A stretch of 64,000 nt of DNA, from positions 1 to 64,000 of the IMG/VR virus record IMGVR_UViG_3300033182_000581; one strand, written 5' to 3'. Origin of the DNA: a virus. The notes beneath the pieces were generated by a model. That model saw nothing but the letters and a program-made list of their open reading frames with translations. It ran no database searches and was not told where the DNA came from. Within the stretch, counting starts at the first letter, position 1. Every line of letters begins with the position of its first letter. Of this stretch, positions 1,578 to 23,515 are shown piece after piece. Both the position numbers and the translations under genes were made by a program.

Positions 1578-1601
1578 AACATTTTAATTAAATTTATTTA
1601 G

Positions 1602-1610
1602 ATATTTATA
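1602..1610 (+). promoter_or_regulatory. Late-type promoter motif ATATTTATA before bS21
   Basis: Exact copy of the 9-bp motif that recurs upstream of structural operons here. It sits immediately upstream of a terminator hairpin. A transcript starting some 6-8 nt downstream would begin inside the stem and so would not form the terminator, while upstream transcripts would. Confidence 0.55.
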
Positions 1611-1646
1611 TACACCTATCATAAGTTTGGTAGGTGTATTTTTTTT
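1611..1646 (+). terminator. Intrinsic terminator
   Basis: Stem ACACCTATC pairs with GGTAGGTGT (one G-U pair) around a short loop and is followed by a run of T. It ends the first head operon 12 nt before the bS21 start codon. Confidence 0.8.
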
Positions 1647-1658: not shown

Positions 1659-1919
1659 ATGCAAGAACAAAACAAAAAACGTTACAAAAAAGTGAGAAGA
1701 GAAGATATGGAAATTCCCGGTGCTCCATTAGGTGTAAAAGTTGTAAACAATCAGATTGAACCGGCTTTAAGACTTTGGAAAAGAAAAGTAAAAGATAGTG
1801 GTCATTTGGATGAGTTGAAAGAAAGACAACAATACACAAAACCAGCTGCTAAGAGAAGAAGGCAAAAACAATTGGCTGTTAGAGCTGAGTGGGTTCGTAG
1901 ACAAATAGAAAACTATTAA
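1659..1919 (+). CDS. rpsU: Phage-encoded ribosomal protein bS21
   Basis: An 86-residue basic protein. Residues about 26-82 match the small-subunit protein bS21: the N-xx-x-PALRLWKRK segment corresponds to the cellular D/E-x-ALRRFKR, followed by a HLDELKERQQYTKP segment like the cellular xLxExRRREFYEKP, then a basic RRRQKQLAVR helix. Cellular bS21 is usually 60-70 residues; this one has an extra basic N-terminal tail of about 25 residues. bS21 binds the 30S platform next to the 3' end of 16S rRNA and takes part in initiation. In Bacteroidota it helps hold the anti-Shine-Dalgarno out of reach. No Shine-Dalgarno is visible before this ATG, so unmodified host ribosomes could translate it. The identification is by motif; an effect on host translation is inferred. 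Confidence 0.88.
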   Translation: MQEQNKKRYKKVRREDMEIPGAPLGVKVVNNQIEPALRLWKRKVKDSGHLDELKERQQYTKPAAKRRRQKQLAVRAEWVRRQIENY

Positions 1920-1936
1920 ACACTTTTTTAGTGTTT
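1918..1936 (+). terminator. Weak hairpin after bS21
   Basis: A 7-bp stem (AAACACT / AGTGTTT) with a T5 loop overlaps the stop codon of bS21. Only a broken T-rich tail follows, so termination may be partial. Confidence 0.45.
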
Positions 1937-2038: not shown

Positions 2039-2068
2039 TTTCCGCAAGAAAATTTAAGGAGAACGAAA

Positions 2069-3106
2069 ATGGCAAGAAAAGACTTGTTATCAGAAGCAAT
2101 CGCTGATGCGAAAGCCGTTAAAGAAACTGCTCTAGCAAATGCGAAGTTGGCTTTGGAAGAAGCATTCACTCCAAAACTTCAATCAATGATTTCTGCTAAG
2201 TTAGCTGAAGAGGCTGATGAGGAAGAGGTTGACGAAGAATTAGATTCATCAGATTTAGGTGCTGGCGATAACGCTCAACCTGATGCAGATGCTGCTAGTT
2301 CATCTGATATTGAAAACGATGATGAATTGACTGAAGAAGAGGATGAGGAAGTTTCTGAAGAAGAAACAACTGAAGAAGGTTGGAACGAAGAAGAAGAAGT
2401 ATCCGAAGAAGATGATATGGAAGAAACTTACGAAGGTGAGGAAGAAGTATCTGAAGAAGATGATATGGAAGATTCTGAAGAAGAAGATGAGTACGAAGAA
2501 GATGATGAAGATGATTTAGATTTAGAATCTGTAATCGCTGAATTAGAAGCTGAGTTAGAAGAAGAGGATGATGAAGAAGTATCTGAAGAAGAAGATGAAG
2601 TATCTGAAGAAGAAGATGAAGTATCTGAAGAAGAAGATATGGATGACGAAGAAGAAATCGACTTGGATGAAGTTATCAGAACTCTGAAAGAAATGGAAGG
2701 TGAAGAAGAGGTAGCTGAAGAAGAAGAGATGGACGAAGAAGAAGATACTGCTGCCGAGTTAGAAGAAGCTTATAAGACTATCAACTCTTTGAGAAAAACA
2801 ATCAATGAAGTTAATTTGTTGAATGCTAAACTTCTTTACACTAACAAATTGTTCAGAACATTTGACTTGAACGAAAATCAGAAAGTTAAAGTTCTTGAAA
2901 ACTTTGATAGAACATCTTCAGTTCGTGAAGTAAAATTAGTTTTCTCTACATTGGCTGAGAACTTAAACGTAGCTAAGAAGAGAAAAGCAGTTGTAAAAGA
3001 GGGATACGCCTCTAAGGCAACAAAAAGTTCTGCACCTAAGAAACAAATTATTTCTGAAGGTAACGAAATGGCTGCAAGATGGAAAAAACTTGCGGGTTTA
3101 AAATAA
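2069..3106 (+). CDS. 22: Prohead core scaffolding protein gp22-like
   Basis: 345 residues from the ATG with a strong AAGGAG site 7 nt upstream; an in-frame start further upstream would begin inside the leader hairpins. The middle (about residues 50-235) is extremely acidic, made of SEEED/SEEDD repeats. It is flanked by a helical N-terminus and a C-terminal helical region ending in ARWKKLAGLK. An acidic, repetitive core protein encoded just before the major capsid gene is the signature of T4 gp22, which forms the prohead scaffold and is degraded by the gp21 protease; the ISEG sequence near the C-terminus is a candidate cleavage site. T4 gp22 is about 270 residues, so this one is enlarged by the acidic repeats. 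The assignment rests on order and composition. Confidence 0.8.
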   Translation: MARKDLLSEAIADAKAVKETALANAKLALEEAFTPKLQSMISAKLAEEADEEEVDEELDSSDLGAGDNAQPDADAASSSDIENDDELTEEEDEEVSEEETTEEGWNEEEEVSEEDDMEETYEGEEEVSEEDDMEDSEEEDEYEEDDEDDLDLESVIAELEAELEEEDDEEVSEEEDEVSEEEDEVSEEEDMDDEEEIDLDEVIRTLKEMEGEEEVAEEEEMDEEEDTAAELEEAYKTINSLRKTINEVNLLNAKLLYTNKLFRTFDLNENQKVKVLENFDRTSSVREVKLVFSTLAENLNVAKKRKAVVKEGYASKATKSSAPKKQIISEGNEMAARWKKLAGLK

Positions 3107-3131
3107 TATTATAAGGAAACGGAGAATAAAA

Positions 3132-4769
3132 ATGAATTTAAAAAACATTCTTAATGAAGGCGCTTCCCACCAGACACGTTTGAGTGAAGCAACTCGCGAG
3201 TTGGCTTCAAAGTGGGAAAAGACTGGTCTTTTAGAAGGAATCGACAACGAAATCGAAAGAGCCGGTGTTGCAACCCTTTTAGAAAACCAAGCACGTCAGT
3301 TAGTAAAAGAGGCATCAGCTACTGGTACTTCTGCTAACTCTGAAGAGTGGGCTGGTGTAGCTCTACCTTTGGTAAGACGTATTTTTAGTGAAATCGTAGC
3401 AAAAGACTTTGTAAGTGTTCAACCAATGAACCTTCCTTCAGGTCTTGTATTCTACTTAGATTTCAAATATGGAACAGGACAACCTGGTTTCACTACTGGT
3501 TCTGGAAAAGATTCACAAGCTGATTCTGTATTCGGTATCACCGAAACTACTTCAGACCCTTCTGGTGGTTTGTATGGTGCTGGTAGATTTGGATACTCAG
3601 TAAACGACCAAGTATCTGCTGCTCAAACTTTGGGTACTGCTGGTGCTAACAAATTCGTAACTGGTTCTGTATCTGCTGCTGATTACAACTACGATACTAA
3701 CTTCTCTCAATCTTACGCAAGTGAGATTGCAAGTGGTGAAGTATTTACTGCAGCTGTACCTACTGCATCTATCTCTGGATACGATGATAAAGGTATCAGA
3801 GCGTTCAGAGTAACATCTGCTGATGTAACTGACCAATTCCCACAATTTACTAAGTTGAGTGGTGGTGATGTTGTGTTCGTATTGCAAGGTACTTTAGATG
3901 CTACTAATGACTTGAGAGTTAAGTATCACAAACAACCAACTGATACTTCAAGAGGTGATTTCGAAGCAACTGGAACTTCATTGAGTGCTAATCCAGAAGT
4001 AGATATCGATATTCCTGAATTGAACGTAGAAATGAAGTCTTTACCAATCGTGGCTAAGACTCGTAAGTTGAAAGCACAATGGACTCCTGAATTCGCACAA
4101 GATTTGAATGCTTACCATTCAATCGATGCTGAAGCTGAATTGACTTCAATGTTATCTGAGTACATCTCACAAGAGATTGATTTCGAAATCTTAGATATGT
4201 TGATTCAAGATGCTAAGAGCACTGGTTACTGGTCAACTCAAGTTGGACGTGAGTGGAATGGTTCAGCATTTGCTGATTACTCTACTACTGGAGCTCAAGC
4301 TTCTGCATTCACTCAACAAGCATGGTTCCAGACTTTGGGTACTGTGATTGCTGGTGTATCTAACAAAATTCACCAAAAAACACTTCGTGGTGGTGCTAAC
4401 TTCTTAGTAGTATCTCCTGATGTTGCAACTATCATCGAATCTATCCCTGGATACGCTTCAACTGCCGATAATGGTGATGCTCAGTTCGCATTTGGTGTAA
4501 CTAAGATTGGTGCATTGAATAGTAGATTCCAAGTGTACAAAAACCCTTATATGAAAGAGAACGTAATCCTTATGGGTTATAGAGGAACTCAGTTCTTAGA
4601 GACTGGTGCAGTTTACTCTCCATACATCCCATTGATTATGACTCCATTAGTATATGACCCTAAGAACTTCACTCCAAGAAAAGGTGTAATGACTCGTTAC
4701 GCTAAGAAAATGTTGAGAGGTGAATTCTACGGTAAGGTATATGTAGATGGACTTCACAAAATTCAGTAA
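3132..4769 (+). CDS. 23: Major capsid protein gp23
   Basis: 545 residues, close to the T4 gp23 length, forming the HK97-fold hexamers of the head. Family signatures are the N-terminal delta region with LLENQ, the EEWAGVALPLVRRIF segment, PSGLVFYLDF, and the C-terminal TPRKGVMTRYAKKML. ILNEG at residues 5-9 and LLEG near residue 35 fit the prohead-protease consensus. It follows gp22 by 25 nt with GGAG upstream, in one operon closed by a strong terminator. Identification is very secure. Confidence 0.96.
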   Translation: MNLKNILNEGASHQTRLSEATRELASKWEKTGLLEGIDNEIERAGVATLLENQARQLVKEASATGTSANSEEWAGVALPLVRRIFSEIVAKDFVSVQPMNLPSGLVFYLDFKYGTGQPGFTTGSGKDSQADSVFGITETTSDPSGGLYGAGRFGYSVNDQVSAAQTLGTAGANKFVTGSVSAADYNYDTNFSQSYASEIASGEVFTAAVPTASISGYDDKGIRAFRVTSADVTDQFPQFTKLSGGDVVFVLQGTLDATNDLRVKYHKQPTDTSRGDFEATGTSLSANPEVDIDIPELNVEMKSLPIVAKTRKLKAQWTPEFAQDLNAYHSIDAEAELTSMLSEYISQEIDFEILDMLIQDAKSTGYWSTQVGREWNGSAFADYSTTGAQASAFTQQAWFQTLGTVIAGVSNKIHQKTLRGGANFLVVSPDVATIIESIPGYASTADNGDAQFAFGVTKIGALNSRFQVYKNPYMKENVILMGYRGTQFLETGAVYSPYIPLIMTPLVYDPKNFTPRKGVMTRYAKKMLRGEFYGKVYVDGLHKIQ

Positions 4770-4900: not shown

Positions 4901-5560
4901 ATGACGGAGAACAAATCTAAAACCCCGCCAAAAGGTAATGTAAAATTCTCATTAACATTATCTGAAGAACAAAAATTAGCAAAAGCAGAAATTTTAAAAC
5001 ACCCATTTAATTTTGTAGTAGGAAAGGCAGGTAGTGGTAAAACATTACTGGCAGTTCAGATTGCGTTGGATATGTTTTTTAAAAGACAGGTAAATCATAT
5101 TATCATAACAAGACCAACTGTTTCAAATGAAGATAATGGATTCCTTCCAGGTTCATTAGAAGAAAAGATGGAGCCGTGGTTAGTTCCAATTCGTTCAAAT
5201 ATGAGAAAAGTTTACAATAAACCTACCATTTTAGAGAAGATGGAAAGTGATGATAATATAGAATTAGTAAGTTTATCACATTTTAGAGGAAGAACTTTTG
5301 ATGATTCCATAATTATAGTAGATGAGTTCCAAAATCTTACCAAACAACAACTACTTATGGTATTAGGTAGGGTTGGTAAGGGCTCTACAATGATTCTTTG
5401 TGGTGATAAACAACAAATTGATTTAAAATTCGCAAATGATTCAGCAATACATGAAGTTCCGAAATTAAAAGGCTCAGATTGGGTATATGATATTGTATTA
5501 AAAGATAATCATAGACATGAATCTTTGGACGAAATCCTCAGACTCCTAACTGATTACTAA
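4901..5560 (+). CDS. phoH: PhoH-family P-loop ATPase
   Basis: 219 residues. Walker A GKAGSGKT lies at about residues 41-48, Walker B IIIVDEF at about 137-143, and the family segment ITRPTV follows the first strand. PhoH proteins are ATPases common in marine phages; their role in infection is unsettled and the link to phosphate is historical rather than proven. The start was chosen at MTENK, which has an AAGGA site; an in-frame extension upstream would read through the promoter. It forms its own short unit between the capsid and fibre genes. Confidence 0.9.
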   Translation: MTENKSKTPPKGNVKFSLTLSEEQKLAKAEILKHPFNFVVGKAGSGKTLLAVQIALDMFFKRQVNHIIITRPTVSNEDNGFLPGSLEEKMEPWLVPIRSNMRKVYNKPTILEKMESDDNIELVSLSHFRGRTFDDSIIIVDEFQNLTKQQLLMVLGRVGKGSTMILCGDKQQIDLKFANDSAIHEVPKLKGSDWVYDIVLKDNHRHESLDEILRLLTDY

Positions 5561-5568
5561 GTTTTGAT

Positions 5569-5577
5569 ATATTTATA
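5569..5577 (+). promoter_or_regulatory. Late-type promoter ATATTTATA
   Basis: Exact motif 8 nt after phoH and 29 nt before the GTG of the first fibre gene. Confidence 0.6.
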
Positions 5578-5606
5578 TAAAAGAAAACAATTTCAGGGGA
5601 TAAAAC

Positions 5607-6791
5607 GTGGCAGATTACACAGGTTCATTTAGTGGGTCATTCGAAGGTAGTGGTACTGGGTTAACAAACATAGATTACTACAATCTGAGTAACCTACCTA
5701 CTACGATTACACCATTTCAGAGAAATTCTATATCCGCAAATAATGCGTTTAGAGATAACTTTGCCGTAAACGTAAAGGATAGGTTAAATATTGAAGGTAT
5801 AATTAGCTCATCCGCCCAATTAACAACTGAATTTGATTTAAGATATGGTAACGAAGAGGGTGATAACTTAATTAGTGGTTCATCTCAGGTTGATTTTGAT
5901 GGTATATCAAATGTTCCAAGTGGATTAATATCCTCATCCGCACAAATTACGATTACCGAATCTCAGATTTCTGATTTAACCCATTACACAAACGCAGATG
6001 TACGAAGTGTGATGCGTGATGATTCGGTTGTTAGTTCATCAGCTCAAGTAATTGAACATTTACCTTCTGGTACTATTAGTTCATCGGCTCAGATTACGAT
6101 TACTGAATCTCAGATTTCTGATTTAACACATACTGATGTAAGTTCATTAAATACATTTAGTGGTTCTATTCAATCACAAGTGGATAGTTTAACATCAGTA
6201 ACATCATCATATCTAACCGCATTGCCAGATGTTGGTATTGTTAGTTCATCAAATCAGATTGAATCTGTCATTACAGATACATATATTTCCGAATCTGCCG
6301 CAAGAAGTGGGTTTGGGCCGGGTGGTGGAACATCCGATTATGATGAATTATCAAATGTACCATCTGGTATCATATCATCATCAGCACAAATTACTGCGTT
6401 GGGATATTCAACTACTGATAACGATAATCAAACTTTATCAATATCAGGTCAAATCTTAACAATATCAAATGGTAATAGTGTTACTTTACCTTCTGGTGGT
6501 GGTGGTGGTGGTTCATCAATATGGACAACTGGCTCACAAGACCCATTATCATATAATTGGTTACAAACACAAAATAACTTACAGGTAACTGGTAGTTTTG
6601 ATATTAAAGGTGATTTAACTGTAAATGGAAAATCCATATTTACACAAACATCTGCATCTGATAATGAATCTGCAGTTGTTATTGAAGGTAGAATGAAAAT
6701 AATAGAACAACAAATAGGTGATTATATAGCATCTGCATCTATTCAGATAGGAAATACTAAAGATACCATAGATTGTGGGGGGTTTTTCTAA
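5607..6791 (+). CDS. Fibre-like structural protein with SSSAQ repeats
   Basis: 394 residues from a GTG with AGGGGA upstream. The protein is low in charge and rich in Ser, Thr and Gly. It repeats a unit built on ISSSAQITITESQISDLTH and its shorter SGSSQ/SSSNQ forms six to eight times, which is typical of beta-helical fibre shafts. A Gly6 linker lies near residue 295, followed by a TGSFDIKGDLTVNG strand repeat and a C-terminus IDCGGFF. The same repeat occurs in the gene at 9512. It is inferred to be a virion fibre or baseplate-attached protein; receptor and position are unknown. Confidence 0.7.
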   Translation: MADYTGSFSGSFEGSGTGLTNIDYYNLSNLPTTITPFQRNSISANNAFRDNFAVNVKDRLNIEGIISSSAQLTTEFDLRYGNEEGDNLISGSSQVDFDGISNVPSGLISSSAQITITESQISDLTHYTNADVRSVMRDDSVVSSSAQVIEHLPSGTISSSAQITITESQISDLTHTDVSSLNTFSGSIQSQVDSLTSVTSSYLTALPDVGIVSSSNQIESVITDTYISESAARSGFGPGGGTSDYDELSNVPSGIISSSAQITALGYSTTDNDNQTLSISGQILTISNGNSVTLPSGGGGGGSSIWTTGSQDPLSYNWLQTQNNLQVTGSFDIKGDLTVNGKSIFTQTSASDNESAVVIEGRMKIIEQQIGDYIASASIQIGNTKDTIDCGGFF

Positions 6792-6798
6792 CAAATAA

Positions 6799-6807
6799 AT
6801 ATTTATG
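6799..6807 (+). promoter_or_regulatory. Late-type promoter variant ATATTTATG
   Basis: Eight of nine bases match the motif, 33 nt before the next fibre gene. Confidence 0.5.
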
Positions 6808-6840
6808 GATATAATCTTAGATAAGTAATAGGATAAAAGT

Positions 6841-9495
6841 ATGGCTCAAACGATAAAACATAGAAGAGGTTCGATATCCTCAGTTAGAAACATCACATCA
6901 TTTGGTGAAGCTGAAATTGTTATTGGTAGCGGTTCAGTTGACTCAAAAGTAGTAGGACCTGTTGTTTACATCGGTAAACCAGGTGGTACAACTGCGGCAA
7001 ATGATTATGTTCCAATTTCAAAAATGTATGTGGGTAGCGGGTTACCTTCAATAACTCCAGCACAATATGGTACAACATTAGATGGGTTACCATATTATGA
7101 TACAACAAACAAAAAGATTTATATTTTAGGTGCAAATGCGGATGGTACTTCTGGCCATACTGAAATATCTATTACATCTGCATCTATTGAAAACTTTAAT
7201 TCAGTAGTTGTATCTGCACTACCCGATGGAACTGTAAGTGGTTCATCTCAAATATCATTTTTAAGTATAAGTGATATTCCATCTGGAATTGTATCATCTT
7301 CAACACAAATTACCAATGTTATCACCGACTCATACATCTCAGCATCTGCTGCAGCAAGTGGATTCGGGTCAGGCGGTGGTGCTTCAGTTGGTGGAATCTT
7401 TATTCAAACAGGTTCAGTTTACGCAACCACAAATGATTTAGAAGTTACAGGTTCAATAAACGCAACCAATATTAATGCAGGAACTCCTACTTCTAATGCA
7501 TGGCAAACAAACTTAGAAGGTTCTTACTTTAATAACTTTACAAAAGATACTGATGTATCTGAGATTTTAAGATTTGTGGCTGGATTATTATCATCATCGG
7601 CAGCTAACCCAACTGCAAATACAAAAACATATAGTTCAATTAGTGAAAATAAATCTTTGGGTGCAACTTCTAATATTTCAGGTTACATTCCACAAGACCA
7701 GGATATTAATGATGTACAATATCTAATTGATAACGGATTCGCTGCAGTAGGTGGTACAATATTCCCTGGTAAAACAATTTATACATCAACAACACCATTG
7801 ATTTCATATTCATCTGTTGCGGGTGGTTCTACATCCGTACAATCATCAGCAGACTCTCAATTATTTGGGTTAGGTGGTTTAAGTAGTGGTGCTGGTACTG
7901 AGTTTAGAGTGAGTGGTTCACATTCATTTAGTTTTTATCAATCACAAACTGCGATTGATGGTGATACTGCAACTGAAACATCTGAATCATCACAAATATT
8001 AAGTAATTCAACATTAGATACTACATCAAATGGTGTTACACTTGGTAAAATTCAAACAGTCAACCCTGCAGTAATTCCTGCAGCATTCCAAGATGGTAAA
8101 TTTGCAACGGTATTTAGTAAAAACTTAGTAGATTGGACATCGGAATTATTAACATCGGTTTCTGCATCAGGTCAATACAAAATTAGTACAACAATTGGTA
8201 TTGGTACGGGTTCACAATCAGATTACACAACAAAATCAGCTGATGAAACAATTTTTTGGGCACCAATATCAACAATCACTTCAAATTTAGGTTCACAAAC
8301 ATTATCTTACTCTGGTGATACCACAACAGCATTAACTGCAACATCTGGTTCAATCTCTGGAGCACCATATTTAAGTGGTGGTACTTGGAATTTAGTTGTA
8401 ACTATGAGTGGTTTGTTTGAACCATTATATGCGGCATCTACAACATTGGGTGATGTTATCGTTACAAACCCATCTGCAAATGGAAGTATTGTTGTATCAA
8501 ACACATCAGGTGTAGATACATTATCAACCTCTGGTGGGGATGTATCAACCGCAAACGCAGTTTATGGTAGTGATGGTACTGTTAGAAGTACTGGTACTCA
8601 TCCATTTAGAACTGATGATTTTATTGTCGATGCAGTTTATACAATTAGTGGTACGGGAAATACGTTTGATGAAAGTGGTTTTACCGATACTGAGTTTAAT
8701 TTGGCAGTTAAAGGTAGAAATAGATTAGGTTCACAATCTACATTAGTTACTAAGAATGTGGCAATACATACCGCAGGTGATTTTGGTCAAATTGCTGATA
8801 GTGGTTCAATGGGATACTTTGGTGGTGGAACATCTTCACCAACTGGATTGGCAGAGACGTTCTTAACTGAAAGTTATAGAAGAGTAATTGGTTCACCAAC
8901 TGCGTTAACAACAACGTGGGATAAAGAAGCAAGTTTAACATTAGGTAATGGTGGTGATTTACAGGTTAAACCAGGATACTTAGTTAATCCTGAATCTGCA
9001 AATGGATATTGGTATCCTACTGGAAATTATAATTCAGCACATTACAAATGGTATCTAAGAGAATTCACTACTGGAGCAGGTGCAAACGCATCTACATTAA
9101 GAATTGATTTAGACCCTGATACTTCTGCAGATTTAACAACATTTGATGATACCACTGCTAATAAGATTGCAGTAGGGGTGATTTTTGAATCACAATTACC
9201 TGCAAATAGTGGTGATAGTAGAACAACTATATTTGATGTAGTTAAAGGTAACGCATCTTATGGTGGTTCATATGATAACCAATCATCAGATAATCAGTTG
9301 AATCCATTTAGTGGTGCGGTTGATTTACAAGGAGATTTCTCATCTCTAACTAATTCATCTGGTACATTGACAGTGGGATTAACAAACGCAATTGGACAGA
9401 CAATAAACGCAACATATGATAAAGTTTGGGTATTGATAAGATATACAGGAACACCATCTAATACGTTAGAAGGTATAACAGTATCGTTACCATAA
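6841..9495 (+). CDS. Large fibre/adhesin-like protein
   Basis: 884 residues starting with AGGA upstream. The N-terminus TIKHRRGSISSVRNI followed by GEAEIVIGSGS resembles the short N-terminal attachment module found on many phage fibre and structural proteins. SGSSQ/SSSTQ repeats follow to about residue 190, then a long Ser/Thr/Gly/Asn-rich beta region to the C-terminus. No enzyme motif was seen. Its place in a run of fibre genes supports a host-recognition or fibre role; the exact part of the virion is unknown. Confidence 0.65.
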   Translation: MAQTIKHRRGSISSVRNITSFGEAEIVIGSGSVDSKVVGPVVYIGKPGGTTAANDYVPISKMYVGSGLPSITPAQYGTTLDGLPYYDTTNKKIYILGANADGTSGHTEISITSASIENFNSVVVSALPDGTVSGSSQISFLSISDIPSGIVSSSTQITNVITDSYISASAAASGFGSGGGASVGGIFIQTGSVYATTNDLEVTGSINATNINAGTPTSNAWQTNLEGSYFNNFTKDTDVSEILRFVAGLLSSSAANPTANTKTYSSISENKSLGATSNISGYIPQDQDINDVQYLIDNGFAAVGGTIFPGKTIYTSTTPLISYSSVAGGSTSVQSSADSQLFGLGGLSSGAGTEFRVSGSHSFSFYQSQTAIDGDTATETSESSQILSNSTLDTTSNGVTLGKIQTVNPAVIPAAFQDGKFATVFSKNLVDWTSELLTSVSASGQYKISTTIGIGTGSQSDYTTKSADETIFWAPISTITSNLGSQTLSYSGDTTTALTATSGSISGAPYLSGGTWNLVVTMSGLFEPLYAASTTLGDVIVTNPSANGSIVVSNTSGVDTLSTSGGDVSTANAVYGSDGTVRSTGTHPFRTDDFIVDAVYTISGTGNTFDESGFTDTEFNLAVKGRNRLGSQSTLVTKNVAIHTAGDFGQIADSGSMGYFGGGTSSPTGLAETFLTESYRRVIGSPTALTTTWDKEASLTLGNGGDLQVKPGYLVNPESANGYWYPTGNYNSAHYKWYLREFTTGAGANASTLRIDLDPDTSADLTTFDDTTANKIAVGVIFESQLPANSGDSRTTIFDVVKGNASYGGSYDNQSSDNQLNPFSGAVDLQGDFSSLTNSSGTLTVGLTNAIGQTINATYDKVWVLIRYTGTPSNTLEGITVSLP

Positions 9496-9511
9496 TTAAA
9501 AGGATATAAAG

Positions 9512-10807
9512 ATGGCATATAATTCAAATAACAGGTCGGAAAGATTACTACAAAATAGAAGGTTCACAACCGATAATCTTACTTTAAGTCAAGAAGCATT
9601 TACTGATGTATTCGATTTAGGTGCAGGTGAAATTTATACTGATGATGGTCTCATTCCGACCGGGTCATCTCAGTTGCCATATAGTGGTTCATCCCAAAAC
9701 CTTTTAATTGTATCAGCAAGTGTTGTAAACCCTTCAATTGGAACGGATTTACCTATTCTAAAATATTGGTATAGAAAAAAACTAAAACCTGCGGGTGATG
9801 GTAATAGAGAAGTTTATTACTTTACAACTTCAGACCCTGCGGCAGTTGATGATACGGTAACATCTGACCAATTGATTGAAACTGACCAACAAACAAACTT
9901 TGTATCACCAAAATATATTATCGCAGCAAATAGTGTAAATAATACTGAGAGTTCAACTCCTGGTTATAAAGCAGTAGTTTATAAAGATACTGCATCATCT
10001 GCCGGAAGTATAACAAATGCTGCAGCAGACCCATCAACTTACACATTTGATTTTAAAACAGGTGTTTTGAGTTGGAATGATGGTTCGGCACCAGCATCTA
10101 ATGAATATGTTTACATTACGGTGTATCAATATGTTGGTAGAACACTTCGTTCTCAAATTGATGATGGTTCAATTGGTGGTGGCGGTGGTTCTACTGATAT
10201 TTCAGCCCTAAATACATTTACGGGTTCAATTCAAACTGAGGTAGATACTTTAACTGCAGCAACTTCATCGTATTTAACATCTGTACCCGCAGGTACTGTA
10301 AGTGGTTCATCACAAGTAGTTGATTTACTACCATCTGGTGTAATTAGTGGTTCATCTCAGATTACAATTACTGAATCTCAGATTTCAGATTTAGGCCACT
10401 TCACTATTTCAGATTTACCTTCAGGTACTGTAAGTTCATCAGCACAGATTACAATTACTGAATCACAAATTAGTGATTTAACTCATTACACAGATTCTGA
10501 TGTAAAAACAAAACTAAATACTGAAAATGTAATTAGTTCATCGGCACAAATAGTGAGTTCACTACCAGGTGGTCTTGTAAGTGGTTCGGCACAAATAATT
10601 TCTAACTTAGAAGGACAGAGTTTATCAGTTGCAACATTAACCGCTGAGACTTACATTGTAAGTTCATCAGTTACTCATATGACTACATCATTTAGTAGTG
10701 GTTCTACTATATTTGGTGATGATATTAATGATACACACCAGTTTACTGGTTCAATGTTTGTATCTGGTTCTATTTCATTTAGTGAAATCGATGGCGGTAC
10801 ATTCTAA
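9512..10807 (+). CDS. Fibre-like protein with SSSAQ repeats
   Basis: 431 residues with AAAAGGA upstream of the ATG. The N-terminal 220 residues form a distinct domain (RSERLLQNRRFTTDNL onward) containing a YVYITVYQYVGRTLRSQI strand pair. A Gly-rich hinge follows, then SGSSQ/SSSAQ units including ITITESQISDLTH, shared with the gene at 5607. The C-terminus EIDGGTF echoes the IDCGGFF end of that paralogue. It is likely a virion surface protein; the function is inferred from repeats and context. Confidence 0.66.
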   Translation: MAYNSNNRSERLLQNRRFTTDNLTLSQEAFTDVFDLGAGEIYTDDGLIPTGSSQLPYSGSSQNLLIVSASVVNPSIGTDLPILKYWYRKKLKPAGDGNREVYYFTTSDPAAVDDTVTSDQLIETDQQTNFVSPKYIIAANSVNNTESSTPGYKAVVYKDTASSAGSITNAAADPSTYTFDFKTGVLSWNDGSAPASNEYVYITVYQYVGRTLRSQIDDGSIGGGGGSTDISALNTFTGSIQTEVDTLTAATSSYLTSVPAGTVSGSSQVVDLLPSGVISGSSQITITESQISDLGHFTISDLPSGTVSSSAQITITESQISDLTHYTDSDVKTKLNTENVISSSAQIVSSLPGGLVSGSAQIISNLEGQSLSVATLTAETYIVSSSVTHMTTSFSSGSTIFGDDINDTHQFTGSMFVSGSISFSEIDGGTF

Positions 10808-10821
10808 GATAGGGGATAGGC

Positions 10822-11214
10822 GTGGCCGAAAACAGAATAAAATTAAAAAGGAGCTCAACCGCTGCAAGAGTACCCAATGTTAGTGATTTAACATTAGGTG
10901 AGTTGGCGGTAAATACTTATGATGGTAAGTTATTCTTTAAAAAGGATAATGGAACTGATTCTATTGAATCAATCGTTACCACCAATGCTCAAATTACAGG
11001 TTCTGTTGAATTAACTGGGGCATTAACCTCATCTCTTTCTTTGATTGAAAACAATACACCATCAACTGATATGTTTTTGGTAAAAATCAATGGAAATGAT
11101 AAAGTAAAAGTAAATTCAGAAGGAACTTTTGTAATAAAAGAATCCCTAACACTACCAACTGGAGAAAAAGGTGCAATAGCCGTTAGTGGAAGTGGATTTT
11201 TTATATATTTATAA
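10822..11214 (+). CDS. Short fibre-module protein
   Basis: 130 residues from a GTG with AGGGGA upstream. The N-terminal half contains IKLKRSSTAARVP, LGELAVNTYDGKLFFKK, a motif widespread at the start of phage tail-fibre and structural proteins. The C-terminal half has two short beta repeats (SVELTGAL, VKVNSEGTFVIKESL). It appears to be a stand-alone attachment or fibre-base module in the fibre cluster. Recognition of the motif is firm; the precise role is not known. Confidence 0.66.
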   Translation: MAENRIKLKRSSTAARVPNVSDLTLGELAVNTYDGKLFFKKDNGTDSIESIVTTNAQITGSVELTGALTSSLSLIENNTPSTDMFLVKINGNDKVKVNSEGTFVIKESLTLPTGEKGAIAVSGSGFFIYL

Positions 11215-11231
11215 GAAAGTATAAAACAAAC

Positions 11232-11240
11232 ATATTTATT
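11232..11240 (+). promoter_or_regulatory. Late-type promoter variant ATATTTATT
   Basis: Eight of nine bases of the motif, 38 nt before the next start codon, in the only gap of this part of the fibre cluster. Confidence 0.5.
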
Positions 11241-11278
11241 TAACACAAACATAAAGCTTAAAAAAAGAGGAAACAAAA

Positions 11279-12700
11279 ATGGCAGAATGGAAAAAAGTAA
11301 TTGTTTCGGGTTCATCACCTGAATTCGCGGCAATAACAGTAGACGGGACGGTAACCGCTAACGCATTTAGTGGTGATGGTTCAGGCCTTACAGGCGTAGC
11401 TGCAGGAAGTATCGATATCGATAACTTTAGTGCAGGAACAGTATTAGACCAAGCAGATGTATTCTTATATTCTGATGGTGGTACTGAAAAGAAAATTACA
11501 TTTAGTAATATCGAAGATGAAATCTTTGGTAACGTAAGTGGTGATGCCACTATCGCAGCAGGTGGTGCATTAACAATCGCAGCAGGTGCTGTTGAAAATT
11601 CAATGTTAGCAGGTTCAATCACTAATGCTAAATTATCAAACTCCGCAATCACAATTGCTGGAAACTCAACTTCATTGGGTGGCTCAATTACACAGGCAGC
11701 TATCTTAGATGGTTCAACTGTAATTTCATCTTCAATGAGTGTTACTAAATTAAGTGATGTAAGTTCAGCTGGTTCTGGTCAAATCATTACATCTGGAGAA
11801 AGAACTAAATTAAGTGGTATCGAAACAGGCGCAGATGTAACCGATGCAACTAACGTACAAGCCGCTGGTGCATTGATGGATTCAGAAGTAACTAACCTTG
11901 CACAAGTTAAAGCGTTTGATTCATCAGATTATGCTACTGCGGGTCAGGGGTCTAAAGCAGATTCTGCTCAACAACCACCATCAGAAGGTGCATTCGTAGA
12001 TGGAGATAAAACCAAATTAGATGGAATTGAATCTGGAGCAGATGTAACTGATACAGCAAATGTAACTGCAGCTGGTGCATTGATGGATACAGAAGTTGAT
12101 GCAGATATCAAAACTTTATCACTTCCAGCAAATACAACAATATCTTCATTCGGTAAAACACTTGTAGATGATGCCAATGCCGCAGCAGCAAGAACAACTT
12201 TAGGATTAGGTTCAATTGCAACTTTATCATCAATTGATATTAGTTCAAATACTAACTTAACTGCTGGTACTGGTGTAACTCTTACTGGAGATACCCTTTC
12301 AATCGGACAGGATGTGGCAACGAATGCAAACGTAACGTTTGCAAACATTACTGCAACTGGTGATTTGACTGTACAAGGTACTTTAACTTCACTTCAAACT
12401 ACAAACTTAAACGTAGAGGACCAATTAATTCTATTAGGTTCTGGTTCGGCTGATGCTAGAGATTTAGGTTTAGTCTTTGGTGGTTCAAACGGTACTGCCG
12501 GTCGCGGAGATGCATTCTTCTACGATATGGATACTGATAGACCCGCTTGGAGTAGTGGTGACGTATCATGGGACGATACTGAGGTCACACCTACTGCATT
12601 TATTCCAAGAGTATATGATGTAGATGGTTCATCTCATATTCCTGTTGCAGAAGTTGGTTCAATTCAAGTTTCAGGTGGAGAAGTATTTATCTACGGATAA
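11279..12700 (+). CDS. Tail-fibre-like protein with TKLDGIESGAD repeats
   Basis: 473 residues with GAGGAA upstream. It begins with WKKVIVSGSS, the same module that opens the 1,673-residue fibre at 13059, suggesting both are anchored to the same site. A DGTVTANAFSGDGSGLTG fibre motif follows. Two copies of TKLxGIExGADVTD...AAGALMD, a unit common in marine T4-like fibres, occupy about residues 178-275. The C-terminal 150 residues include a GDLTVQGTLTSLQTTNLNVEDQ segment as in other fibres. It ends at GGEVFIYG. Virion fibre or distal adhesin, partner unknown. Confidence 0.72.
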   Translation: MAEWKKVIVSGSSPEFAAITVDGTVTANAFSGDGSGLTGVAAGSIDIDNFSAGTVLDQADVFLYSDGGTEKKITFSNIEDEIFGNVSGDATIAAGGALTIAAGAVENSMLAGSITNAKLSNSAITIAGNSTSLGGSITQAAILDGSTVISSSMSVTKLSDVSSAGSGQIITSGERTKLSGIETGADVTDATNVQAAGALMDSEVTNLAQVKAFDSSDYATAGQGSKADSAQQPPSEGAFVDGDKTKLDGIESGADVTDTANVTAAGALMDTEVDADIKTLSLPANTTISSFGKTLVDDANAAAARTTLGLGSIATLSSIDISSNTNLTAGTGVTLTGDTLSIGQDVATNANVTFANITATGDLTVQGTLTSLQTTNLNVEDQLILLGSGSADARDLGLVFGGSNGTAGRGDAFFYDMDTDRPAWSSGDVSWDDTEVTPTAFIPRVYDVDGSSHIPVAEVGSIQVSGGEVFIYG

Positions 12701-12737
12701 TAATTATTGACTAATGAAATGGTTAAAAAGGTTATAT

Positions 12738-12926
12738 ATGGCAATAATTACTAAAAAGGAAGATACTGAAAAGGTAAGAAATAAAAAATTTGATAATTTG
12801 GACTTGAACAAAGATGAGTTAGAGTTCCTCTTAAATGTAATAGCCAACTCAACTTTTGAAGGAAAGGATGTTCAATTGGTTTATGAAACCGCAGTAAAAA
12901 TTCAAAAACAAATTTTAGAATTGTAA
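12738..12926 (+). CDS. Small conserved-looking hypothetical protein
   Basis: 62 residues from MAIITKKED, chosen over an in-frame ATG at 12714 because only the inner start has an AAAAGG site at suitable spacing. It is charged and helical with a LNKDELEFLLNVIANSTFEG core that I associate with small uncharacterised proteins of marine T4-like phages. It closes the operon before a strong terminator. Function unknown. Confidence 0.55.
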   Translation: MAIITKKEDTEKVRNKKFDNLDLNKDELEFLLNVIANSTFEGKDVQLVYETAVKIQKQILEL

Positions 12927-12929
12927 TAG

Positions 12930-12956
12930 AAACCCCCCATTTTGGGGGGTTTTTTG
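12930..12956 (+). terminator. Strong intrinsic terminator
   Basis: Stem AAACCCCCC / GGGGGGTTT with a 5-nt loop and a T-run. Confidence 0.92.
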
Positions 12957-12975
12957 TTTTAAAATATATTATTCC

Positions 12976-12984
12976 ATATTTATA
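12976..12984 (+). promoter_or_regulatory. Late-type promoter ATATTTATA for the long fibre operon
   Basis: Exact motif 19 nt after a terminator. The 74-nt leader that follows contains CCC-GAAA-GGG (13006-13015), a GNRA-type tetraloop hairpin, with a possible alternative pairing of GCCC to GGGC at 13020-13023. Confidence 0.55.
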
Positions 12985-13058
12985 TCAAATGACCCTTAAT
13001 GTTGGCCCGAAAGGGAAGTGGGCTTTTTAGTAACCAACCGCAATAAAGGAAAAAGGAT

Positions 13059-16000
13059 ATGCCAAATTGGAAAAAAGTAATTGTATCAGGTAGTGATGCA
13101 TCGTTAAACACATTAAGTGTAAGAAATGGGGCCCATATTACTGGGTCTTTAAATGTTTATAAATCAGGTTCATCTGTATTTAGTATTGATGGTTCTCAAG
13201 GTAGATTATTTGAGATAACTGACCAGCTATCTGGTTCGTTATTTGCGGTAAGTGATATTTCGGGTGTACCATCGTTCGAAGTATTTTCAGATGATACTGT
13301 AAAAATTGGGTCATTTAATTCAGAAGCAATTATTGTAGAAGGTAGTAGTGCTAGAGTAACAGGTTCATTTAGCGGTTCTGCTGAATTCGATACATTAAAG
13401 TTAAAATCATTATCTAACCAAAGTTCAGAAGCAACAGCAGTTGTAATCAATGGTTCAAATGTAGTTGGAACAAGAGAATTAGGTTCAAACGCATTTACCT
13501 CAACTACAATCCCAACTAATAACAACCAATTAACAAATGGTGCTGGATATATTACTTCCTATACAGATACAAACTATTATTTAGACGGTATTACTAAATC
13601 AGGTAATACTTTAACATTTAGTGTTAATGGTACTACTAATCCCACTTATACTTTTGGTTCAAACGCATTTACCTCAACTACAATTCCAACTAACAACAAC
13701 CAATTAACCAATGGTGCGGGTTACATCACAGGATTAAATTGGAGTGAAATTGGTGGTACACAAGATAGCATTAATGTTAGTGGGTTCAACAATGACGCGG
13801 GATACACCAGTAATGTTGGTGATATTACAGGCGTAACTGCCGGAACTGGATTAAGTGGTGGTGGTACTTCAGGTACAGTAACAATCACAAACTCAGATAG
13901 AGGGTCATCTCAAAACATATTTAAAAATGTAGCAGTATCGGGTCAAACATCTATTGTTGCCGATTCAAACAACGATACACTTACATTTGCAGCAGGTGCT
14001 GGAATTGGTCTTACAACCAACGCAACTACTGATACGATTACAATTACCAACTCAATCACTAACAACAACCAATTAACAAATGGAGCAGGTTACATTACTG
14101 ATGGTAATACCAATTGGAACAACTCATATGGATTCATTACGGGTGTTGATTGGGGTGAAATTGGTGGAACACAATCTGATATTAACATTAGTGGGTTCAC
14201 TAATGATAGTGGATTTACATCAAATACAGGTACTGTAACATCGGTAGCAAGTGGAACTGGATTGACAGGTGGTACAATCACAACATCAGGTACTCTTAGT
14301 TTAGCAACCGCAGGAGTGGGTGCTGGTACTTATGGTTCAACTGCAAACGGAACAAAAATCGATACAATTACAGTCGATGCATATGGTAGAATCACCGCAG
14401 TAGCGACTGGTGCTACTGGAACATCTACAACTTCAGGTACTGTAACATCGGTAGCAACAGGTACAGGTCTTACAGGTGGTACGATTACATCAACAGGTAC
14501 AATCTCACTTTCACATTTAGGTTTCCAAAACTTAACTGACCCCAATGATGATAGAATTGCATTCTGGGATGATTCAGCTGGAGCATTTGGATGGTTAGAT
14601 ATTGGTAGTGGATTATCCATTAGTGGAACTACCCTATCAAACACCATTACAAATAATAATCAGCTAACAAATGGAGCAGGTTACATTACTGATGGTAATA
14701 CCAATTGGAACAACTCATATGGATTCATTACGGGTGTTGATTGGAGTGAAATTGGTGGAACACAATCTGATATTAACATTAGTGGATTTACCAATGATGC
14801 AGGATACACTACTAATGTAGGTGATATCACAGGTGTAACCGCAGGAGATGGTTTAACAGGTGGTGGTTCATCGGGTGGAGTAACTCTAAACATTGGTGCT
14901 GGTACTGGTGTAACTGTCAATGCTAATGATATCGCAATTGGACAGGCGGTTGGTACATCGGATGATGTAGAATTTAATAATTTAACTCTTTCTGGTGATT
15001 TGACCGTAAATGGTGCAACCACCACAATTAGTACAACAAACACAGCAATTCAAGATAACTTAATCGAACTTAATAGTGGGGCTACATCAAACTCAAATGA
15101 TAGTGGTATCATTATTGAACGAGGTAGTACTGGTAATAACGCATTATTCATTTGGGATGAGTCAGCAGATAGATTTGCAGTAGGTACAACAACCGCAACC
15201 GCAGATTCGACTGGAAATATTACATTCTCAACTGCTAACTTACAAGCAAACACATTTGTAGGTGCATTGAGTGGAAACGCAACAACTGCAACCTCTGCTG
15301 GAAAATGGTCAACCTCAAGAACACTCACTTTGGGTGGAGATTTAAGTGGTAATGTTACATTTGATGGAAGTGCTAACTTTACACTAACCGCAGCAGTAGC
15401 AAACGATTCACATACTCACGATGGTAGATACTACACCGAATCGGAAGTAGATACTTTACTCGCCGCAAAAGATAATTACGGAAGTTGGACAGTTTCGGAT
15501 GGAACAAACACAACTGATATAAGTTCAGGCGGAACTTTAACTTTTAGTGCAGGTTCTAATGTGGATATTTCAGAGAGTGCGGGTACTGTAACAATCGACT
15601 CTACAAACACAACATATTCGGCTGGAAATGGTATTGGATTAAGTGGAACAACATTCTCAGTTGCAGCGGGTACAGGCCTTTCACAAGATGCAAGTGGTTT
15701 AAGTTTAGCAACCGCTGGTGCTGGTGCAGGAACATATGGTTCAACCGCAAATGGTACTAAGATTGATACAATTACAATTGATGCTTATGGTAGAGTAACT
15801 GCGGTAGCCACAGGAGCGACAGGTACTTCATCAACTTCAGGTACTGTAACTTCCGTTGCTACTGGAACTGGATTGACAGGTGGTACGATTACCTCAACAG
15901 GTACAATCTCACTTTCACATTTAGGTTTGGAATCCCTAACCGACCCTGACGATGATAGAATCTTCTTTTGGGATGATTCAGCTGGAGCGGCTAAATGGTT

Positions 16001-18080
16001 AGATATAGGTTCAGGTCTTTCAATTAGTGGAACAACATTAAGTAATTCAATCACCAACAACAACCAATTAACGAATGGTGCTGGATATATTACCGATGGT
16101 AATACCAATTGGAACAACTCATATGGGTTTATCACTGGAGTTGATTGGGGTGAAATTGGTGGAACACAATCAGATGTAAACATTAGTGGGTTCACTAATG
16201 ATAGTGGATTTACATCAAATACAGGTACTGTAACCTCAGTTGCAACTGGAACTGGACTAACGGGCGGAACAATCACATCGACTGGAACAATTTCCCTTTC
16301 ACATTTAGGTTTCCAAAACTTAACTGACCCGAATGATGATAGAATTGCGTTTTGGGATGATTCAGCTGGAGCATTTGGATGGTTAGATGCGGGTTCAAAC
16401 ATTACAATTAGTGGAACAACCATTTCAGCAACCAATACTACATACTCAGCAGGTTCACTTTTAGATTTAAGTGGTACTACATTTAATGTTGATTTATCAG
16501 AACTTACTGATATGACTCAAGCATGGTCAAACTCCACCGATGAATTTGTAGTATTAGATAGTGGTGTACAAAAAAGAAAGTTAAGTTCTGAGATATTTGG
16601 AAGTAATGCATTCAATAGTACAACAATTCCAACTAATAACAACCAATTAACAAATGGTGCGGGTTACATCACAGGATTAAATTGGAGTGAACTTGGCGGT
16701 GCACAATCTGATATTAACATTAGTGGATTTACTAATGATAGTGGATTCACATCAAATACAGGTACTGTAACCTCAGTAGGTGTAACTGCTGGAACAGGTC
16801 TTAGTGGTGGTGGTACAGTTACCACAACGGGAACTATTTCATTAGCAGTTGATTTATCAGAACTAACCGATATGACGGCAGCTATGGTTGGTACTGATGA
16901 ATTTATTGTATTAGATGCTGGTGCTGATAGAAGAAAAGCTGCAAATGAAATTCCGTTAAGTATATTTAGTAATGATAGTGGATTCATAACGAGTGTTGAT
17001 TGGAATGAGATTGGTGGAGCTCCTACTGATATTAATTTAAGTCAATTCACAAATGATTTAGCAGTTAGTGCATTTACCAATGATGTTGGATACACCACTA
17101 ATGTAGGTGATATCACTGGTGTAACTGCCGGAACTGGATTAAGTGGTGGTGGTACATCAGGTGGTGTAACACTTAACTTAGCAAACACAGCAGTAACTGC
17201 GGGTTCATATACAAACGCTGATATTACGGTAGATGCACAAGGTAGAATCACTGCAGCATCTAATGGTTCAGCAGGTGGGACTGGAGATATTACTTCAGTT
17301 AGATTAACTTCAGATAGTGGTTATGCTCAAGTTTTGTCTGGGGCTGCTAATTTCACTATTAATGGTGGTGGAACTGTTTCAACATCCGCAAGTGGTACAA
17401 CATTAACAATTACTGGCCCATCCAACGTAAGTGAATTAACTAATGATAGTGGTTATTATTCATCAGGAGATGCTGGAGATTTCAATTCACTTGCAGTGGG
17501 TAGTTCAGCTGCTATGAATCCAGGTGGTACTGCAACAAACCCAGCCATACACTTTGCAAATTCCAGTCTAACAACAAATAACGGAATATATAGTGCAAAT
17601 AGTAGTACCATTAATATATCTACCGCAGGTACTCAGAGAGCAACCTTTAATGGTAATGGTTTAAAAATTAATAATGGTGCATTGGGTGTAAGTGTTAATG
17701 CATCAACAACTGATGGTAGAATTGATGCTAGTAATGATATTGTAGCATACTCATCATCAGATAGAAGATGGAAAGAAAATATTAAACCAATTGATAACGC
17801 ATTAAATAAAATATTAAAAATTGGTGGATATGAATTCGATTGGAAAGAACTTTCAGAAGAAGAAAGAAAAACACAACATAGTAACGAAGGGCATGATGTT
17901 GGTGTAATAGCACAAGAAATCGAAGAAGTTCTTCCTGAAGTAGTTACTACGAGAGAAAACGGATTCAAAGGTGTTAAGTACGAAAAGATAGTACCATTAT
18001 TGATTGAAGGTATGAAAGAACAACAATCTCAAATTGAAGAACTTAAATCAGAAATCAGTAAACTTAAAGGAGAAGGATAA
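13059..18080 (+). CDS. Long tail fibre with C-terminal S74 intramolecular chaperone
   Basis: 1,673 residues with AAAGGA upstream. The WKKVIVSGSD module opens the protein. The shaft is built from repeats of NNNQLTNGAGYIT (six copies), xNWxEIGGTQSDINISGFTNDSG and GTVTSVATGTGLTGGT. The last roughly 108 residues are a peptidase S74/endosialidase chaperone domain: SSDRRWKENIKPI, where Ser and Lys form the self-cleavage dyad in this family, then GVIAQEIEEVLPEVV, VKYEKIVPLLIEGMKE and a final coiled coil. Such domains trimerise fibres and are then released by autocleavage. The S74 assignment is secure. Receptor specificity is unknown. Long direct DNA repeats make this gene prone to recombination. Confidence 0.9.
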   Translation: MPNWKKVIVSGSDASLNTLSVRNGAHITGSLNVYKSGSSVFSIDGSQGRLFEITDQLSGSLFAVSDISGVPSFEVFSDDTVKIGSFNSEAIIVEGSSARVTGSFSGSAEFDTLKLKSLSNQSSEATAVVINGSNVVGTRELGSNAFTSTTIPTNNNQLTNGAGYITSYTDTNYYLDGITKSGNTLTFSVNGTTNPTYTFGSNAFTSTTIPTNNNQLTNGAGYITGLNWSEIGGTQDSINVSGFNNDAGYTSNVGDITGVTAGTGLSGGGTSGTVTITNSDRGSSQNIFKNVAVSGQTSIVADSNNDTLTFAAGAGIGLTTNATTDTITITNSITNNNQLTNGAGYITDGNTNWNNSYGFITGVDWGEIGGTQSDINISGFTNDSGFTSNTGTVTSVASGTGLTGGTITTSGTLSLATAGVGAGTYGSTANGTKIDTITVDAYGRITAVATGATGTSTTSGTVTSVATGTGLTGGTITSTGTISLSHLGFQNLTDPNDDRIAFWDDSAGAFGWLDIGSGLSISGTTLSNTITNNNQLTNGAGYITDGNTNWNNSYGFITGVDWSEIGGTQSDINISGFTNDAGYTTNVGDITGVTAGDGLTGGGSSGGVTLNIGAGTGVTVNANDIAIGQAVGTSDDVEFNNLTLSGDLTVNGATTTISTTNTAIQDNLIELNSGATSNSNDSGIIIERGSTGNNALFIWDESADRFAVGTTTATADSTGNITFSTANLQANTFVGALSGNATTATSAGKWSTSRTLTLGGDLSGNVTFDGSANFTLTAAVANDSHTHDGRYYTESEVDTLLAAKDNYGSWTVSDGTNTTDISSGGTLTFSAGSNVDISESAGTVTIDSTNTTYSAGNGIGLSGTTFSVAAGTGLSQDASGLSLATAGAGAGTYGSTANGTKIDTITIDAYGRVTAVATGATGTSSTSGTVTSVATGTGLTGGTITSTGTISLSHLGLESLTDPDDDRIFFWDDSAGAAKWLDIGSGLSISGTTLSNSITNNNQLTNGAGYITDGNTNWNNSYGFITGVDWGEIGGTQSDVNISGFTNDSGFTSNTGTVTSVATGTGLTGGTITSTGTISLSHLGFQNLTDPNDDRIAFWDDSAGAFGWLDAGSNITISGTTISATNTTYSAGSLLDLSGTTFNVDLSELTDMTQAWSNSTDEFVVLDSGVQKRKLSSEIFGSNAFNSTTIPTNNNQLTNGAGYITGLNWSELGGAQSDINISGFTNDSGFTSNTGTVTSVGVTAGTGLSGGGTVTTTGTISLAVDLSELTDMTAAMVGTDEFIVLDAGADRRKAANEIPLSIFSNDSGFITSVDWNEIGGAPTDINLSQFTNDLAVSAFTNDVGYTTNVGDITGVTAGTGLSGGGTSGGVTLNLANTAVTAGSYTNADITVDAQGRITAASNGSAGGTGDITSVRLTSDSGYAQVLSGAANFTINGGGTVSTSASGTTLTITGPSNVSELTNDSGYYSSGDAGDFNSLAVGSSAAMNPGGTATNPAIHFANSSLTTNNGIYSANSSTINISTAGTQRATFNGNGLKINNGALGVSVNASTTDGRIDASNDIVAYSSSDRRWKENIKPIDNALNKILKIGGYEFDWKELSEEERKTQHSNEGHDVGVIAQEIEEVLPEVVTTRENGFKGVKYEKIVPLLIEGMKEQQSQIEELKSEISKLKGEG
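14074..14194 (+). repeat. Direct DNA repeat inside fibre gene, copy 1
   Basis: This 121-nt stretch recurs at 14665-14785, exactly 591 nt (197 codons) downstream, with a single mismatch (14154 G versus 14745 A). A third copy near 16065-16190 encodes nearly the same peptide with many synonymous changes. Confidence 0.9.
14665..14785 (+). repeat. Direct DNA repeat inside fibre gene, copy 2
   Basis: Second copy of the 121-nt repeat. Recombination between the two would remove or add 591 nt in frame. Confidence 0.9.
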
Positions 18081-18520
18081 TGGCACTAACAGCATCAGGT
18101 CAATTAAGTTTAGGTGATATTGCAACTGAAATGGGTGTATTATTTCTTTCAAATGTATCTCTCACTACCCAATCTACTACAGGTATCAATACAAACTCAT
18201 CATCATATCCAGATGGTTCAACACCTCATGCGGTATCAGAATTTTATTCGTATGACCATTTAGCAATTGGAACTACTTATAATGAATGGACAGGTGATGG
18301 GCCACATCCTGGTTCAGATGAGGCATGTGAAGTTGAAGAACCTGCAACATCATTCTACCACGATGGTAGTGGTGGAGACCCTACGACCGGTGATACCGTT
18401 TATACGGATAGTAGTGGAAATAATACAGCAGATGCAGGATATTACAGAACAGGTTGTTGTTACATTCAAGTAGATGATTCTGGTGTGGTTACTGATGATG
18501 TTGGAGAATGTGGACGTTAA
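18080..18520 (+). CDS. Cysteine-containing fibre-associated protein
   Basis: 146 residues; the ATG overlaps the fibre stop codon (TAATG) and has GGAGAAGGA upstream, so it is translationally coupled to the long fibre. The N-terminus TASGQLSLGDIATEMG is a short module often found in small structural or adhesin proteins near fibres. The rest is Gly/Asp/Ser-rich with four cysteines (ACEVEE, GCC, ECGR), unusual among these proteins. A fibre-tip or adhesin role is inferred from coupling and composition; partner and receptor are unknown. Confidence 0.6.
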   Translation: MALTASGQLSLGDIATEMGVLFLSNVSLTTQSTTGINTNSSSYPDGSTPHAVSEFYSYDHLAIGTTYNEWTGDGPHPGSDEACEVEEPATSFYHDGSGGDPTTGDTVYTDSSGNNTADAGYYRTGCCYIQVDDSGVVTDDVGECGR

Positions 18521-18538
18521 TAAAAGAAAATAAAGATT

Positions 18539-18793: not shown

Positions 18794-18796
18794 TAA

Positions 18797-20956: not shown

Positions 20957-20964
20957 GAATCCAC

Positions 20965-20973
20965 CATATTTAT
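20965..20973 (+). promoter_or_regulatory. Late-type promoter ATATTTATA for neck genes
   Basis: Exact motif 24 nt before the ATG. The following ACAAACACTAAG is nearly repeated after the motif at 23516. Confidence 0.6.
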
Positions 20974-20997
20974 ATACAAACACTAAGGAGAATATAA

Positions 20998-22161: not shown

Positions 22162-22165
22162 AGAA

Positions 22166-23496: not shown

Positions 23497-23515
23497 TGTT
23501 TCTAAATAAATTTTC

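Follow-up and report, generated by a model that had tools for sequence, protein, structure and literature searches.

A basic, N-terminally extended phage bS21 and Shine-Dalgarno-led late genes: a possible time-ordered initiation switch in T4-like phages of Bacteroidota

The window analysed here is a stretch of 64,000 nucleotides from a viral record of 169 kb (IMGVR_UViG_3300033182_000581, positions 1 to 64,000), which by its sequence belongs to a T4-like, gp23-bearing phage. The initial annotation, made from the letters alone, placed a gene for ribosomal protein bS21 upstream of the late genes and proposed that its product could replace the host copy and release, or re-tune, the anti-Shine-Dalgarno (anti-SD) sequence of the ribosome. 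The position given for the gene holds, as the scaffold and gp23 genes follow downstream, and the locus is laid out as listed below.

1601..1610, + strand: late-promoter-like motif GATATTTATA upstream of bS21 (enrichment and strand bias of TATTTATA, conservation in relatives)
1610..1646, + strand: terminator-like hairpin (stem 1610-1639) followed by a T-run, between the promoter-like motif and the bS21 ATG (fold)
1659..1919, + strand: phage bS21, 86 aa, with a basic 21-residue extension (PF01165, alignment, leader duplex)
1918..1936, + strand: terminator-like hairpin at the bS21 stop codon, AAACACTTTTTTAGTGTTTTC (sequence; the same in L002)
2056..2061, + strand: Shine-Dalgarno (SD) sequence AAGGAG of the putative scaffold gene (-8.2 kcal/mol)
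2069..3106, + strand: acidic putative scaffold/prohead core gene, the first after bS21 and SD-led (position before gp23, composition)
3113..3124, + strand: SD of the capsid gene, AAGGAAACGGAG (-9.6 kcal/mol)
3132..4769, + strand: major capsid protein gp23 (PF07068, 263 bits)
4901..37662, + strand: remainder of the window's late/structural genes, among them PhoH, tail fibre, adaptor and tail sheath; SD-enriched at about -11
39818..62709, + strand: replication and nucleotide-metabolism genes (DNA polymerase, UvsX, DnaB, RNR), largely without SD

The putative scaffold gene at 2069-3106 has no Pfam or PHROG match. The structural and SD-led genes fall at the two ends of the record (0-38 and 133-169 kb), the arrangement of a circularly permuted genome that was cut in its late cluster. 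The record (G000) also encodes a GroEL-type chaperonin at 99170-100777 (L004:15170-16774; phrog_5725, E 1.7e-160), and four tRNA genes (Leu-taa, Arg-tct, Ser-tga, Leu-tag) lie at 13185-14251 of L005.

The bS21 assignment is secured by a match to PF01165 (Ribosomal_S21) over residues 26-76, at 47.5 bits against a cut-off of 27; a search of the whole 169,380-base record found this single bS21, and a 93%-identical copy on another viral contig likewise adjoins gp23. Alignment to Flavobacterium johnsoniae bS21, with which the window's protein shares 29% identity, sets the beginning of the core at about residue 22. The N-terminal extension thus comprises 21 residues, not the 25 first stated, while its basic character stands, with a net charge of +4 for the segment preceding the core. 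The comparison of anti-SD pocket residues, confined to the Tyr54 position, used the bS21 sequence of 7JIL and a Flavobacteriaceae bS21: Arg75 of the phage protein aligns with F. johnsoniae Tyr54, so that the aromatic residue which in Bacteroidia-type proteins stacks on A1534, and contributes to anti-SD sequestration, is absent and this contact is lost. The predicted structure (pLDDT 83) has helices at 33-47, 49-55 and 62-85, and its best Foldseek matches are bS21m chains, but at an E value of 0.1. As the annotation had it, the gene itself lacks an SD: the leader, TTTTTTTTAATATAGAT, forms an anti-SD duplex of -0.4 kcal/mol, unlike the strong SD that precedes many Flavobacteriales rpsU genes. 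The rpsU of a Flavobacteriaceae metagenome-assembled genome (MAG), for instance, carries GAGAGGAGGTG.

Upstream of the gene, the motif TATTTATA is 20-fold enriched ahead of late genes, shows a strand bias of 30:6 in the record and is conserved before bS21 in relatives. The region 1608-1700 folds at -17.8 kcal/mol (z -3.4), and inspection of L042, L047 and L050 finds the hairpin kept with its stem sequences changed; throughout the window's clade the order is (G/A)ATATTTATA, a hairpin with a T-run, about 12 bases and the bS21 ATG. At T4 late promoters, transcription starts about six bases past the motif. A similar start here would fall inside the 5' arm of the hairpin, which would then block read-through from upstream and spare the bS21 transcript. 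The stretch 1601-1658 may be an overlapping promoter and terminator that isolates the bS21 unit, an arrangement found clade-wide with altered stems.

Within the phage, SD use divides along the same lines as gene class: the late genes next to bS21 do carry SDs, a point absent from the initial annotation. Genes were called with a simple hexamer-based gene finder that ignores SDs, so the signal is no artefact of start choice, and bases -20 to -4 before each start were tested for pairing to the 16S tail, ACCUCCUUUCU. Late genes, taken as those at 0-38 and 133-169 kb with a boundary chosen after the data had been seen, have a mean duplex energy of -4.80 kcal/mol (n=58), against -2.19 for early genes (n=131; p=2.7e-8) and -2.2 to -2.5 for internal ATGs. 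Their sites are of the AAGGAG type and peak at -11, and early genes, like the bS21 gene, mostly lack them, a pattern that recurs in relatives of the phage; 15% of early genes carry SD-like sites (-5.5 kcal/mol or lower), about the internal-ATG rate of 14%. Two further partitions agree: structural and DNA-metabolism genes classed by PHROG differ (p=0.010, 7 each), and genes directly behind TATTTATA average -3.85 (n=20) against -0.83 (n=19) for genes behind early promoters of the kind described below (p=0.002). With regard to site composition, AGGAG is enriched 14-fold and the G-U-compatible AGGGG 4.7-fold, whereas AGGCG (0.9-fold) and AGGTG (0.4-fold) are not, which fits base pairing with the 16S tail; strong GGAGG-type sites are hardly enriched. 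Scrambled anti-SD sequences overlap the true one (-2.08 for the true sequence against -1.27 +/- 0.39, minimum -2.27), a weak control given that the sites are purine-rich and scrambled versions also score.

The early promoters speak to the identity of the host. Over the whole record, the + strand has 19 GTATATT[TA]GTA elements, 18 of them within 43-131 kb, the early/middle region, and the - strand has 0; in the 18 measured, TTGG stands upstream of the -7 element at constant spacing. The 19 early promoters match TTTG-N19-TATATTTG. Those in the window are the following.

43927..43937, + strand: early promoter -7 element GTATATTTGTA, the leftmost of the window's five, preceded at a constant distance by TTTGG
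44015, 47036, 51547 and 61957: the other GTATATTTGTA early promoter elements in the window

The Bacteroidota housekeeping sigma factor recognises a -33/-7 consensus of TTTG/TANNTTTG (PMC6847099), and promoters of this sigABfr type are what the phage carries. Together with the Flavobacterium phages among its relatives, this match makes the Bacteroidota host named by the initial annotation very probable. Host assignment through MAG contigs with related capsids was dropped, as these were too few and mixed. Several early genes begin 0-5 bases past the -7 element GTATATTTGTA, in the window at 47036 and 51547 and elsewhere in the record at 65405, 68168, 92280, 97572, 116231, 118300 and 151117; their mRNAs would be leaderless or nearly so, unlike most F. 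johnsoniae mRNAs, which have leaders.

The nearest capsids are those of Mel-JY01 (60%; recorded host Microcystis) and Flavobacterium phages (immuto, 55%), followed by an uncultured 484-kb phage (54%) and Rhodothermus phage RM378 (38%). In Mel-JY01 and the 484-kb phage bS21 lies close to gp23, and searches of the whole records of immuto and RM378 found no bS21. The stated host of Mel-JY01 (L009, PP395634.1) is worth a second look, as its nearest capsid relatives belong to a family for which the other host evidence largely indicates Bacteroidota. For a broader comparison, viral contigs were scanned three times on the basis of the capsid; with a small set of named phages and some MAG contigs added, this yielded 112 dereplicated loci, counted only where bS21 status and late SD use were readable, with an SD threshold of -0.5 kcal/mol relative to internal ATGs. 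Loci scored as lacking bS21 have 3.6 kb or more of unbroken sequence ahead of gp23, and for immuto, G006, G018, G019, G020 and G021 the search extended over the whole record or contig. Both bS21 and late SDs occur in 55 loci and neither in 50, leaving seven discordant ones, five with bS21 only and two with SDs only; in the first 95 loci the corresponding counts were 42, 49, 4 and 0. Bearers of bS21 without SDs include L083, L256 and L310. L278 and L281 have SD-led late genes and no detected bS21, and the 48-kb contig of L281 contains none. In bS21-less relatives such as L010, L160, L170 and L196, late genes avoid anti-SD complementarity beyond chance, at 1-3 kcal/mol weaker than internal ATGs.

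The comparison was also made with the promoter class matched. TATTTATA is strand-biased in most phages with and without bS21 (G006 being an exception), and bS21-less relatives such as Flavobacterium phage immuto share the motif and lack the SDs. Genes directly behind it average -3.30 kcal/mol in seven pooled bS21-bearing phages (n=123, 38% at -5.5 or lower) and +1.08 in three bS21-less ones (n=46, 0%; p=1.8e-12), so that the same promoter-like class has SDs only alongside bS21; genes after sigABfr-type promoters in the seven bS21-bearing phages average -0.52 (n=51, 6%). An SD-less bS21 gene, SD-led late genes and the near-exclusive occurrence of late SDs in bS21-bearing relatives form the pattern that release or re-tuning of the anti-SD would predict.

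On the capsid tree, bS21 status changes about 4-6 times, at least 4 of them on well-supported branches. In phylogenetically independent pairs, SD use shifts in the same direction or does not differ, and never goes the opposite way, yet such pairs are too few for a significant sign test (median p 0.25 for the first 95 loci, 0.5 for the 112). This small number of independent changes, like the scrambled control that is not sharply separated, leaves some room for a different origin of the late purine-rich sites: they could be a legacy of a T4-like ancestor whose host used SDs, or could have a binding partner other than the anti-SD, such as the extension of phage bS21 or an RNA-binding protein of the phage, with bS21 a separate adaptation. 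We regard this as improbable, since bS21-less lineages nested in or beside bS21-bearing clades have no SD (L073, L095), and placement at -11 with acceptance of G-U but not C/U variants fits 16S pairing.

Phage bS21 proteins are of several kinds, and the link to SD use differs among them. Among 31 dereplicated phages whose bS21 extension is at least 14 aa, the bS21 gene averages +0.49 kcal/mol and never has an SD (0/31), while the capsid gene of the same phages averages -6.95 and has one in 30 of 31 (paired p=5.9e-7). At position 54, some of these phages have R, V or E and others Y. The loss of the tyrosine as the determinant of SD use was ruled out, as SD-using relatives carry R, K or Y there; the initial reading is upheld in part, for the Tyr54 contact is lost from the window's protein, although this by itself does not explain SD use, since many SD-using relatives keep the tyrosine. 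The extension as a universal requirement for SD use was ruled out as well, by a separate clade with unextended, non-aromatic bS21 (L259, L266, L280, L300 and others) in which an SD precedes bS21 too. Across the genomes compared, the N-terminal extension stays linked to late-only SD use.

The unextended clade bears on a further alternative, namely that bS21-bearing phages simply infect SD-using bacteria and bS21-less ones SD-blind Bacteroidota, the correlation then arising through the host alone. G016, its fully read member, uses SDs genome-wide, including before bS21, and has no sigABfr-type promoter class, from which its host is probably SD-using; bS21 has its own SD in 11 of the 15 loci with an extension under 10, and Mel-JY01, recorded from Microcystis, together with its kin (extension 10-13) resembles this clade in having an SD before bS21. 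For the extended class such a host effect nonetheless appears unlikely. The window's phage, G003 and G004 have sigABfr-type promoters with SD-less genes behind them, which indicates a host that is SD-blind for early genes, and an SD-using host would not yield SD-less early genes along with an SD-less bS21 in 31 of 31 extended-bS21 loci. Less probable still is that phage bS21 merely tops up or mimics host bS21 late in infection with mRNA choice unchanged: host-like phage bS21s do exist (Tyr/His54 kept; extension 0-3 in 15 and 9 in 2), their phages are SD-free (0/17 dereplicated loci, and likewise the huge phages with host-like bS21) and an essentially normal function has been proposed for them (PMC9723584), but the window's bS21 is of another class, extended, with Arg in place of Tyr54, sharing 29% identity with F. 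johnsoniae bS21 and accompanied by SD-led late genes.

In Bacteroidia ribosomes, the anti-SD is hidden in a pocket of bS21, bS18 and bS6, and SDs go unused (PMC9976891). In F. johnsoniae, strong-SD reporters are translated more when host bS21 carries Y54A, is truncated at its C-terminus or is depleted; bS21 mutation helps only strong SDs and not the weak SD AGGA, and ribosomes without bS21 initiate more poorly on SD-less mRNA (PMC9976891). Against this background, the comparative data suggest that extended phage bS21 on balance probably makes SD-blind host ribosomes SD-competent for late genes, and we lean, if only slightly, towards a time-ordered initiation switch by T4-like phages in SD-blind Bacteroidota, in which early genes and the N-extended bS21 are SD-less and late genes SD-led. 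Specifically, the divergent, extended bS21 would be made from a late transcript without an SD, one open to translation by host ribosomes that are still unmodified and SD-blind, and would take the place of host bS21 on the 30S platform. With part of the Bacteroidia sequestration surface missing and a basic extension near the SD/anti-SD helix, the 16S 3' tail might be left free, or SD-anti-SD pairing stabilised, and the altered ribosomes would recognise AAGGAG-type sites before structural genes and initiate preferentially there. Since a weak SD is not aided by host bS21 mutation and the phage sites are intermediate, a phage bS21 that only failed to hold back the tail might be insufficient for AAGGAG, and the protein would have to do more than lose Tyr54; for this additional role the extension, which by its position would lie close to the mRNA/anti-SD helix, is the obvious candidate. 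As a corollary, SD-competent ribosomes should over-translate host rpsU with its very strong SD, which would oppose the takeover.

Several elements of this model have precedents. That a phage copy may replace host bS21 has been published (PMC6375957, PMC7162821, PMC9723584), as have basic N-terminal extensions of phage bS21 (PMC7162821). The jumbo myophages of Bacteroidetes (Chen et al. 2022, PMC9723584) likewise encode bS21 beside capsid/terminase genes, with late expression and a proposed ribosome exchange in a Bacteroidetes host. Their bS21, however, has retained an aromatic residue at position 54, has its greatest similarity to Bacteroidetes bS21 and lies in the terminase-capsid region on the strand opposite to the structural genes, whereas the window's has Arg75 and a 21-aa extension, shares its strand with the neighbouring capsid gene and accompanies SD-led late genes; an SD analysis of phage genes was not found in that paper. 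Mizuno et al. (2019, PMC6375957) showed that E. coli 70S ribosomes take up the bS21 of Pelagibacter phage HTVC008M, but this protein belongs to a different host phylum and is 36% identical over residues 21-85 of the window's protein. Huge-phage rpS21 (Al-Shayeb et al. 2020, PMC7162821) also has an extension rich in basic residues, with no link to SDs reported, and the host-like huge-phage bS21s examined here are unextended and SD-free. A functional parallel is rpsU autoregulation in F. johnsoniae (McNutt et al. 2023, PMC9976891), where loss or change of bS21 unmasks the anti-SD and favours an SD-led mRNA; that case concerns one host gene with a very strong SD, whereas here the SDs are moderate, stand before many late phage genes and accompany a substitute bS21. 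Searches of open-licence papers found none that connects phage bS21 with SD use in late genes. The new part is comparative, namely the association of N-terminally extended phage bS21 with late genes that carry SDs, in hosts that are probably SD-blind.

The role of phage bS21 has been open since at least 2019, and earlier proposals were generic, invoking replacement of the host copy or favouring of phage mRNA. The co-occurrence of extended bS21 with late SDs, in a phylum with ribosomes that conceal the anti-SD, names an mRNA feature that could be selected, and the idea can be tested directly with existing F. johnsoniae reporters. If true, this would be a case of a virus creating a specialised ribosome in nature, and it might serve as a tool for SD-dependent expression in Bacteroidota.
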